This document shows, one piece after another, positions 46 to 4,638 of a DNA stretch of 34,720 nt. The number at the start of each line of letters is the position of its first letter. Position 1 is the first letter of the stretch. The notes below the pieces were generated by a model, which saw only the letters and a program-made list of their open reading frames with translations, searched no databases and was not told where the DNA came from. A program made the position numbers and the translations under genes. This DNA is from a virus. Location: the IMG/VR virus record IMGVR_UViG_3300033144_006022, positions 1 through 34,720 of that record; one strand, written 5' to 3'.

Positions 46-462
46 ATGACAAAAAAAGAATTATTAAAAATGTCAAAAGAAGAAATTCGAAAAACTTCTT
101 TACAAAAAAGAAATAAAGAAAATTCGGATTGTTACGATTGTTGGGATTGTTCGGGTTGTTCGAGTTGTTCGGATTGTTCGGATTGTTCGGGTTGTTTGAG
201 GTGTTCAGATTGTTTGGACTGTTCAGATTGTTCAGTTTGTTTTGATTGTTCGGATTGTTCAGATTGTTCGTATTGCTCAGATTGTTCAGATTGTTCACGT
301 TGTTACAATTGCTCAAGTTGTTCGAGTTGTTCGTATTGTTCGGGTTGTTCGAAGTGTTCAGATTGTTCGTGGTGTTTGAATCAACATAATAAACATTATA
401 TGGTTTTAGATATACAATTAACTAAAGAAGAATATTTTGAGTGGAAAGAAGGAGTAAAATAA
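46..462 (+). CDS. Cys-X-X triplet-repeat protein, copy 1 (28 Cys)
   Basis: A 138-residue protein in three parts. Residues 1-28 form a basic, probably helical head starting MTKKELLKMSKEEIRK. Residues 29-110 are an unbroken array with Cys at every third position, 28 cysteines in all, the other two positions mostly Ser-Asp, Ser-Gly or Ser-Ser with occasional Leu, Phe, Tyr, Trp, Arg or Lys. Residues 111-138 form a tail containing YMVLDIQLTKEEYFEW. AAGGAG with good spacing precedes the ATG. No signal peptide or membrane segment is visible, so it should be cytoplasmic. The DNA is a degenerate 9-bp repeat (TGT TCG GAT type). I do not recognise the family. A period of exactly three could align all thiols on one face of an extended helix or build a narrow solenoid; metal or Fe-S binding or disulfide stacking are inferences. 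A related broken copy lies at 1260-1573. Confidence 0.8.
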   Translation: MTKKELLKMSKEEIRKTSLQKRNKENSDCYDCWDCSGCSSCSDCSDCSGCLRCSDCLDCSDCSVCFDCSDCSDCSYCSDCSDCSRCYNCSSCSSCSYCSGCSKCSDCSWCLNQHNKHYMVLDIQLTKEEYFEWKEGVK

Positions 463-463
463 T

Positions 464-1246
464 ATGGGAATGACAAAAAATTTACGGAAAATTAATAAAC
501 AATTCGGCGCTGTAACTACTTTATATCATGGAGAATACGGGGTCGGTAAAACTACATTAGCTTCTCAATACCCAAAAGCATATTTTATTATGTGTGAAAA
601 TAATAATATTTACGGTGATAAACTGTACATGGATAATGCGGGATCTTGGGAAAATTGTATGTCTTTAATTCAGGAATTTCGTGAAGGGAACCACGACAGG
701 CTAACTTTAATTATAGATAATGCAGCTGAATTTTACAGTTTAGCCGTAGCATATTTTTTAGAAAAGTTTAATTCCACTTTGAAATCAAATGAAGCACCGG
801 CGATTAGTTTAACAGACGCGCGTTTAGGGTTTGGGAAAGGTTATGATGCGGTAGATATTCTCATCAAAACGGCATTAAATCCTTTAGATATGCATGAAAA
901 GTTTAATTTGGTTATTATTGCACATACAGAAACACGGGAGATAGAAAATTTAGACGGTAAGTTTTGTAAATTATGTCCTTTGTTACCTGGAAAAAGGGCA
1001 AGAAAATATTTTTTCACGATTGCAAGGGATATATACTATTACTATTATTCAAAAGGAAAACGGTATTTAAATATAGTCGGCAATGATTTTGTCATGGCTA
1101 AAAATAGTGGCAATGGGCATTTTAAAACAACAGAAGGGAAAAATGTAATTAATATACCTATGGGTGATAGTGCAGAAAACGCATTTAAATACCTACAAGC
1201 AGCATATAATAATCAACTAAAAAGCACTTATGATCATATTAAGTAA
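464..1246 (+). CDS. Sak4-like RecA-fold ATPase (phage recombination, AAA_24 type)
   Basis: A 260-residue P-loop NTPase. Walker A is GEYGVGKT at residues 23-30, Walker B is TLIIDN at 81-86, and IIAHTE at 151-156 fits the sensor strand seen in phage nucleotide-binding proteins of the Sak4/AAA_24 group. These RecA-like ATPases act in single-strand annealing and recombination-dependent replication, usually beside an ssDNA-binding protein, which fits the gene at 1589. The start at 464 is preferred over the ATG at 470 because AAGGAG (449-454) is 9 bases upstream of it. It follows the Cys-triplet gene by one base, so the two are probably co-translated. The family level is well supported; the exact role in this phage is inferred. 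Confidence 0.82.
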   Translation: MGMTKNLRKINKQFGAVTTLYHGEYGVGKTTLASQYPKAYFIMCENNNIYGDKLYMDNAGSWENCMSLIQEFREGNHDRLTLIIDNAAEFYSLAVAYFLEKFNSTLKSNEAPAISLTDARLGFGKGYDAVDILIKTALNPLDMHEKFNLVIIAHTETREIENLDGKFCKLCPLLPGKRARKYFFTIARDIYYYYYSKGKRYLNIVGNDFVMAKNSGNGHFKTTEGKNVINIPMGDSAENAFKYLQAAYNNQLKSTYDHIK

Positions 1247-1259
1247 GGAGTAAAATAAA

Positions 1260-1573
1260 ATGACTAAAAAAGAATTACTAAAAATGTCAAAAGAAGAAAT
1301 TCGAAAAGTTTCTGTACAAAGAAGAAATAAAAAAATGTAAATTGTTACGGTTGTTCACGTTGTTCAGGTTGTACAGATTGTTCGGGTTGTACAGATTGTT
1401 CGTATTGTTCAGGTTGTTCAGGTTGTTTGTGGTGTTCGGATTGTTCGGATTGTTCAGGTTGTACAGATTGTTCGGATTGTTCATGGTGTTTGGATCAATA
1501 CAACAAGCAGTATATGGTTTTAAATATACAATTAACAAAAGAAGAGTATTTTGAATGGAAAAATAAAAATTAA
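1260..1573 (+). pseudogene. Cys-X-X triplet-repeat protein, copy 2, frameshifted at an A7 tract
   Basis: A second copy of the gene at 46-462 with the same ribosome site and nearly the same head (MTKKELLKMSKEEIRK). The head runs into a stop at 1338-1340 just after seven As (1329-1335). The Cys array continues in another frame: from the TGT at 1343 there are 17 Cys-X-X units, then a tail with YMVLNIQLTKEEYFEW and a stop at 1571-1573. One extra base in the A tract would rejoin everything into a protein of about 104 residues reading NKKNVNCYGC across the join. The array and tail remain clean, so the break is recent, is bypassed by polymerase slippage, or is a sequencing error. Called pseudogene only because no single frame spans it. 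Confidence 0.7.
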
Positions 1574-2546: not shown

Positions 2547-2587
2547 AAAAAAAACACCTATATTTATTATGTATAGGTGTTTTTTTT
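2547..2587 (+). terminator. rho-independent terminator between ssDNA-binding gene and DNA polymerase
   Basis: An 8-bp core stem CACCTATA/TATAGGTG extends by eight A-T pairs on the outside around a 9-base loop. The T8 run after the stem gives a plus-strand terminator, and the A run before it would also work in the opposite direction. It lies 20 bases after the stop at 2527 and 14 bases before the polymerase start, so polymerase is probably made by read-through or from another promoter. Confidence 0.88.
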
Positions 2588-2601
2588 ATCAGGAGATTTA
2601 T

Positions 2602-4638
2602 ATGAATCATATCTTTTTTTTAGACTTAGAGACCTACTCTTCTATTCCTATTAAAAACGGAGTATATAAATACGCCGAAAAAGCAGAGATATTGCTGTTT
2701 GCATACGCATTAGATAATAACTCAGTGAAGGTGTGGGATTGTAAAACTGCAAAAATACCTGAAGATTTACGTCAGATATTAAAACGGAAAGATACTGTAT
2801 GGTGTGCTCATAACAGCCAATTTGACAGGGTTATACTGGAAAAGATTTTAGGTATTAGGTATCCATATTGGATAGATACTATGGTTATGGCCCGCCAACA
2901 TAGTTTACCAGGAAAACTATCAGATCTGTGCGATTTTTTTCAATTACCTACAGATAAAGCTAAAGATAAAAAGGGAAAAAGTTTAATCCAATTATTTTCC
3001 AAACCTCTTGGTAAGAACAGGAAATTAAACCGAGCTAATAAATTAACCCATCCTACCGAATGGGAAGAATTTATTACCTATGCATCTTCTGATATTATCG
3101 CTATGCGGGAAATTTTACAAAAAATACCTAAATGGAATTTTACCTCGTTCGAGAGGAACGCATGGAATTTGGATCAGATTATAAACAATCGAGGTATGGC
3201 CGTGGATGTAGATTTTGCAATAAAAGCTATAGAGCTATTAAATATCGAAAAACAACGTTATAATAGGGATATAAGTATATTAACAAAAAAAGAAATTAAA
3301 ACTACACAACAAATAGATAAAATTATTAATTGGATTAGAAATAATTACGATATTACCATACCAGATCTACAGGCCAGTACTGTAAGAACTCTGTTAGATA
3401 CAAAACTACCTAAAGGCGTGAAAAAAATATTAGAATTACGTGCTATATCTTCTAAAACGAGTGTGAAAAAGTATAGTACCTTATTGTCTGCTACTAATAA
3501 AGATAGTAGATTGAGAGGTACTTTATTATTTTGTGGTGCACATAGAACAGGCCGGTGGAGTGGGAGAGTATTTCAACCACAAAATTTACCTCGACCTAAA
3601 TTCAAAAACGAAGAAATAGAAAATTACATTAAAAATATTAAGAGTAATTCGTTAATGCACAGTGATATTAATAAAGTGTGCTCCTCTTCTATTAGAGGAT
3701 TAATAATACCTTCTAAAGGTAATAAATTAGTTGTTTCTGATTATTCAAGTATTGAAGGTCGAGTACTTGCTTGGTTGGCAGGAGAAGAATGGAAAATAAA
3801 GGCGTACGAAAAAATAGATAAAGGTGAAGGTTTTGATATGTATGAACTTACATATGCAAACACTTTTAATGTAAATCCGTCTACGGTAACAAAAGAGCAG
3901 CGTAGTTTGGGAAAAATTTTAGAATTAGCCCTTGGATACCAGGGTGGTGCAGGAGCTTTTGCAAAATTCGCAAAAAATTTTAATATAGATTTACAAGATA
4001 TTGTAACTCAAGTAGATATACCTGCACGGGTTATGTCGGAAGCAGAAAATTTTTTCGGCTTCGCTGTAAAAAATAATATGATAGGTGATCTAACATACGA
4101 AGAATTTACAACTTGCGATAGTATCAAGCGTATATGGAGAGAAAAAAACCCAGCTATAGTACAGATGTGGTCAGATCTTCATAATACAGTGAAACTTTCA
4201 ATTCAATGTAGGCAAAATAATATTGCAGGATATTGCACTATTAATCATGAAAATAATTATCTACGAATAAAATTACCTTCGGGACGATATCTGTGTTATC
4301 CTTTTGCATGTATAGATGAAAAACAAAACATTAGGTATTTCGGAAAAGATCAATACTCTCGTAAGTGGACTATGCTTTATACTTACGGAGGTAAACTTGC
4401 TGAAAACATAACTCAAGCAGTCGCACGAGATATACTAATTTATGGGATGTTTAACACTGAGAAAAAAGGGTATAAGATAGTACTAACAGTACATGATGAA
4501 TTAATTACGGATGTTCCAGATACACCAGCTTTTTCCCACGAAGATTTGAGCCGGTGTATATCAGTTTTACCTAAATGGGCACATGGATTACCTTTATCTG
4601 CTGAAGGTTTTGAGTGCTACAGATATCGAAAACAATAA
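2602..4638 (+). CDS. family A DNA polymerase with 3'-5' exonuclease domain
   Basis: A 678-residue replicative polymerase. The exonuclease motifs are intact: LDLET with D8/E10, AHNSQFD with N71/D75, and YASSD with Y160/D164. The polymerase domain shows motif A around D380 (SDYSSIEGRVLAWL), motif B (RSLGKILELALGYQGG) and motif C (VHDE, H631-D632-E633). No 5'-3' exonuclease domain is present, as usual in phage members. The ATG at 2602 is chosen over an upstream in-frame ATG at 2569 because AGGAGA (2591-2596) directly precedes it and the upstream one lies inside the terminator hairpin. It is the replication enzyme of the left-arm module. Confidence 0.93.
   Translation: MNHIFFLDLETYSSIPIKNGVYKYAEKAEILLFAYALDNNSVKVWDCKTAKIPEDLRQILKRKDTVWCAHNSQFDRVILEKILGIRYPYWIDTMVMARQHSLPGKLSDLCDFFQLPTDKAKDKKGKSLIQLFSKPLGKNRKLNRANKLTHPTEWEEFITYASSDIIAMREILQKIPKWNFTSFERNAWNLDQIINNRGMAVDVDFAIKAIELLNIEKQRYNRDISILTKKEIKTTQQIDKIINWIRNNYDITIPDLQASTVRTLLDTKLPKGVKKILELRAISSKTSVKKYSTLLSATNKDSRLRGTLLFCGAHRTGRWSGRVFQPQNLPRPKFKNEEIENYIKNIKSNSLMHSDINKVCSSSIRGLIIPSKGNKLVVSDYSSIEGRVLAWLAGEEWKIKAYEKIDKGEGFDMYELTYANTFNVNPSTVTKEQRSLGKILELALGYQGGAGAFAKFAKNFNIDLQDIVTQVDIPARVMSEAENFFGFAVKNNMIGDLTYEEFTTCDSIKRIWREKNPAIVQMWSDLHNTVKLSIQCRQNNIAGYCTINHENNYLRIKLPSGRYLCYPFACIDEKQNIRYFGKDQYSRKWTMLYTYGGKLAENITQAVARDILIYGMFNTEKKGYKIVLTVHDELITDVPDTPAFSHEDLSRCISVLPKWAHGLPLSAEGFECYRYRKQ

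Follow-up and report, generated by a model that had tools for sequence, protein, structure and literature searches.

Phage proteins with strictly period-three cysteine arrays: a recurrent family with a possible thiol-cored rod

Described cysteine-rich and repeat proteins compared with the window protein

Metallothioneins have a very high cysteine content and no hydrophobic core, their cysteines are placed at mixed spacing, and both cysteine loss and varied spacing are tolerated in them. Pentapeptide-repeat proteins (PF00805, e.g., WP_306230003.1) form beta-solenoid rods with a period of five residues, with Leu and Ala inside and few or no cysteines. The beetle antifreeze protein TmAFP (1EZG) is a secreted, disulfide-bonded beta-helix with 12-residue coils and a TCT ice-binding face, in which the inward residues occupy positions 2, 5, 8 and 11 of each coil (PMC8038014), i.e., every third position, half of them being cysteines. 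The closest sequence cluster, PHROG 15341, has a profile that covers the Cys array (in relatives, head and array), and it carries no name, structure or role.

The protein analyzed here is encoded at the start of the window, i.e., the whole stretch of DNA studied, which is an entire IMG/VR virus record of 34,720 bases (Table 1). The translation of its ORF, which has AGGAG directly upstream, agrees exactly with what the sequence-only reading had described: 28 consecutive cysteines at residues 29, 32, ... 110, in an unbroken period of three, between a basic, Lys/Arg-rich head of 28 residues and a tail. The array thus holds 28 cysteines per 82 residues; the second position of its units is mostly Ser, the third is Asp in 13 units, and only three basic residues are present. 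Since the probability of such an array arising by chance is about (1/32)^28 (two TGY codons among 64), chance is excluded. The protein resembles metallothioneins in its cysteine content, whereas its strict period of three differs from their mixed spacing and no Pfam metallothionein match was obtained; nor did it match PF00805, its period being three and not the A(D/N)LXX period of five. The earlier statement that neither family accounts for the protein was therefore upheld. DNA mimicry was considered in view of the 13 Asp and three basic residues of the window array and was set aside, since across all arrays the composition is no more than mildly acidic.

Table 1. Features of the Cys-array locus in the window
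Feature	Position	Strand	Basis
Cys-array protein, copy 1	46..462	+	138 aa ORF, ATG start; phrog_15341 match
Basic head, residues 1-28	46..129	+	AF2; related heads in L027, L008, L011
28-unit Cys-x-x array, residues 29-110	130..375	+	sequence
Tail, residues 111-138	376..459	+	AF2; related tails in L008, L011, L191, L230
Sak4-like recombination ATPase, 260 aa, between both array genes	464..1246	+	PF13479 E 1.7e-20, phrog_124 E 1.1e-20
Copy 2 head, in frame, stop just after A7 run	1260..1340	+	sequence
A7 run, site of copy 2 frame change	1329..1335	+	sequence
Copy 2 array (17 units) and conserved tail, in a frame differing from that of the head	1343..1573	+	phrog_15341 E 2.0e-10

A second copy of the array gene, absent from the earlier entry on the first, lies just past the Sak4-like gene (1260-1573). 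Its tail is conserved in the frame of its array. A comparison of the two copies shows 7 differences in 75 bases of the head and, in the tail, five synonymous and four nonsynonymous codon changes. The frame change in copy 2 may be due to recent mutation, to an error in sequencing or to programmed frameshifting. Downstream of copy 2, at 1589-2527, the window encodes a protein with an acidic EDISEDIQ repeat, for which no significant Pfam or PHROG match was found.

Family membership, heads and tails

The Cys-array protein belongs to a recurrent phage family and is not a singleton: arrays of up to 53 units were found in dozens of phage contigs, combined with several kinds of heads and tails. The PHROG 15341 profile matched copy 1 of the window (E from 4.5e-17 to 2.8e-14), all 10 of the members tested and 37 of 38 records (all but a Bordetella record that bears pentapeptide repeats); no model for the family exists in Pfam or NCBIfam. 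The sequence-only reading had named placement in a known, described repeat family with a defined role as evidence against itself, and this came about only in part: the protein does belong to an existing cluster, but that cluster is undescribed and without a role. In the literature covered, which leaves subscription journals and preprints mostly outside, no description of such Cys arrays was found.

When IMG/VR was scanned, the window protein returned 30 loci and the exact pattern at least 120 stretches, many of the latter being off-frame or simple repeats, with clear further members among them. The head types include a short hairpin and helix (WxxDxNGN...), with a different head in members like that of phage FL-1, and the tail types include one with a conserved WHTCETTHCRAGW motif, as well as others. 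The type found in the window is common to the loci L008, L011 (two genes), L027, L191 (two genes) and L230. The earlier reading had made its case depend on conservation of the head and tail elsewhere, and a search with the array masked revealed conservation that was weak but specific: against 29,125 ORFs, the array-free head and tail gave weak E-values, with the top head match and the top three tail matches all being Cys-array ORFs. Two tail alignments, including that of the window's tail type, were too poorly conserved for scanning.

Among isolates, Flavobacterium phage FL-1 (KY421186.2) has such an array; the annotation places its gene, at L267:4500-5204, in a different frame, and the frame changes within the tail. 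Some contigs contain up to 15 profile matches; in L018, L019 and L216, with 14-15 matches per contig, most share one head type while the arrays differ. In bacterial genomes, nearly all of the exact-pattern matches listed were off-frame or simple repeats. PHROG 15341 was also searched for in 795 genomes drawn from two orders; hardly any of the loci fetched were genuine, the one clear relative being L371, a short Cys array in a genome from the bacterial order that includes Paraburkholderia. The tblastn search of the full window protein against named phages gave no match, probably owing to masking of the array as a low-complexity region, and PADLOC gave no match either.

Cysteine invariance, rod exchange and the possible fold of the array

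Cysteine conservation was assessed in 69 arrays that had been located by means of a tail domain alone (a type other than that of the window) and not by the array pattern. Cysteine was present at 1939 of 1942 in-register positions, the three exceptions being Ser, Ser and Arg, whereas the positions beside it varied far more; in a search of the member loci, spacing other than three occurred at only four places inside arrays. As both the cysteine and the period are nearly invariant, any explanation has to make the thiol and the spacing matter alike. In a set of 123 non-redundant arrays (3295 units), the second unit position was Ser in 73.5% of units, the third was Asp, Gly, Arg, Tyr, Asn or Ser in 94%, and proline was nearly absent, while Ser, Asp and Gly were numerous. 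Thr accounted for 2.8% of second and 0.2% of third positions, i.e., a TCT ice-binding ladder is absent; ice binding was rejected, there being too little Thr.

Among the best 80 relatives of the same tail domain, 78 lay behind Cys arrays and the other two ended at a contig edge. The domain was also found in Bordetella bronchiseptica plasmid pA, where a pentapeptide-repeat array (PF00805, E = 4.5e-57) precedes it, and a search with this Bordetella tail yielded 11 loci, ten with pentapeptide arrays and one with a Cys array. The pentapeptide and tail combination occurs in at least six backgrounds, with the Bordetella-like group counted once. Moreover, PHROG 31265, which spans the pentapeptide part and the tail, matches both the tails of Cys-array proteins and the pentapeptide protein; for the tail domain itself, a PDB profile search found nothing relevant and Pfam gave nothing. 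Since the same tail domain sits behind either array, in relatives with this tail type a Cys array occupies, judging by the sequences, the slot of the pentapeptide beta-solenoid, a known rod. The window's own tail type was not seen with pentapeptide arrays. Both kinds of array expose a similar range of residues, namely Asp, Gly, Arg, Tyr and Asn.

Structure prediction, which the sequence-only reading had proposed as a check, was run with AF2 for the protein at 46-462 and did not predict a fold for the array. The head and tail of the window protein had a pLDDT of about 80 and the array of about 30-40; the head contained a helix at residues 11-27 (pLDDT about 80 up to residue 20), and the tail two strands and a helix. 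In the relative L020, the head and tail were likewise predicted confidently and the array had a pLDDT of 24-44; a Foldseek search with this model gave no match. The sole match of a sequence search against the PDB was the beetle antifreeze protein 1EZG, at an E-value of 0.0017, which is weak and inflated by cysteine content. The window array nevertheless follows the every-third-position rule of TmAFP, with its cysteines presumably pointing inward; the fit to this in-out rule is one of analogy and not of homology. The phage arrays have no Thr ladders and would bear cysteine at all inward positions. A lag test of array periodicity, meant to reveal the coil length, gave slightly raised values at lags 4 and 10 but no clear coil period; true pentapeptide arrays showed no coil signal either, so that the test is without power.

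The explanation favored here, to which an about even chance is given, is that of a phage accessory protein of three parts (head, Cys-x-x rod and tail), in which the array is a narrow thiol-cored solenoid. The array would fold as a very narrow beta-solenoid with every third residue, always Cys, facing inward and with Ser and the Asp, Gly, Arg, Tyr or Asn residues facing outward. By analogy with the beetle antifreeze protein, each coil would comprise about 12 residues and four cysteines, so that 28 units may form about seven coils. The thiols would constitute the core, held by bound metal or by disulfides, and such a core would explain the near-exclusive presence of Cys at its positions; metal would be the more plausible holder, as the protein is probably cytoplasmic, its head being unlike a signal peptide. 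The rod may be an exchangeable stalk or a surface for binding, like the pentapeptide rods of relatives. Of the two folds proposed by the sequence-only reading, the narrow solenoid thus gains support from the rod exchange in relatives and from the TmAFP-type rule. Against it stand the array left unfolded by AF2, the absence of a Foldseek match, the weakness of the 1EZG match, the observation of the rod exchange for another tail type and the near-absolute conservation of Cys, which fits plain metal binding as well. A further step, that this is a new tandem-repeat fold, with a core made of stacked thiols only and a continuous metal row or disulfide ladder, forming a cytoplasmic rod of up to 53 units that replaces pentapeptide rods, is put forward only tentatively. 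Should the proposed reading be true, the family would be a widespread phage repeat protein, as yet undescribed, whose solenoid rule (one Cys per three residues) is among the simplest possible and which is exchanged with a known rod; it would offer a test case for narrow protein rods held without a hydrophobic core and, possibly, a one-dimensional metal-thiolate scaffold.

The main rival, considered unlikely, is a metal-buffering, metallothionein-like protein, in which a flexible thiol chain would bind soft metals with no regular rod. The 28 cysteines in 82 residues, their near-absolute conservation and the lack of a confident AF2 structure for the array are all consistent with it, but it does not account for an array that hardly varies in either the spacing or the identity of its cysteines, nor for relatives in which a tail domain shared with Cys-array proteins follows pentapeptide arrays almost without Cys, and no family match supports it. 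The strong selection on the thiols themselves would also suit a redox or thiol-sink protein, e.g., one that counters oxidative stress or a host defence that depends on thiols; this is improbable, as no redox-domain or defence-related model matched and the neighbourhood examined contains nothing pointing to redox chemistry. Slightly less probable still is the other fold of the sequence-only reading, a thiol ladder in which an extended helix turns once every three residues and the thiols all lie along a single face. A period of three geometrically fits a polyproline-II or 3-10 helix; however, the exchange of the array with a beta-solenoid repeat in relatives and the scarcity of proline among the many Ser, Asp and Gly residues speak against such a helix, and this part of the reading gained no support, nor did the metal-binding or redox function that it proposed.

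Two other explanations were given much lower weight. Three weak HxsA4 matches among the relatives (E from 0.0001 to 0.007) recall a modified-peptide precursor akin to the His-Xaa-Ser repeat proteins, which is nonetheless highly improbable: the best relative scored 23.1 bits against a curated cut-off of 55, the window protein had no match, a His-Xaa-Ser pattern is absent, and the neighbouring genes tested were DNA metabolism genes. As the reverse strand is likewise open across the window array, the array could also be a DNA- or RNA-level repeat with an incidental open frame. The chance of this is negligible, because across the 123 arrays the fraction of TGC among the Cys codons climbs from 0.32 to 0.97 with the GC content of the locus and Ser is encoded by TCN and AGY codons alike, while the protein pattern is constant; the pattern is thus maintained at the protein level.

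Recombination genes near the arrays

The sequence-only reading had linked the array protein to a recombination ATPase, and this link was corroborated. The neighbouring gene of the window is Sak4-like, with no relative found for its product in IMG/VR. A Sak4, YqaJ, RecT or ERF gene was detected in 12 array contigs (two recombination-gene matches fall below the family cut-off), and 10 of the 12 have it on the strand of the array, within 3 kb. The eleventh contig qualifies only if it is circular, and in the twelfth the gene is 5.2 kb away on the opposite strand. A combined position test with strand ignored gave a modest p of about 0.001. In the remaining array contigs none of these four genes was found, which may reflect the contigs being fragments. 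The pentapeptide-repeat proteins are also found near recombination genes, as in Bordetella, where the protein lies near YqaJ and RecT genes. The array gene would thus travel with phage recombination genes, and a role of the array protein beside them is a lead only; if the proposed reading holds, it would be a lead on the role of accessory proteins at such sites.

In the same gene block of the window, positions 2569-4638 encode a family A DNA polymerase with a 3'-5' exonuclease domain. Near another array gene, L012:2018-2683 encodes a period-two Ala repeat with Asp, Asn or Tyr, which has no PHROG match and whose Asp, Asn and Tyr resemble the residues exposed in the Cys arrays.
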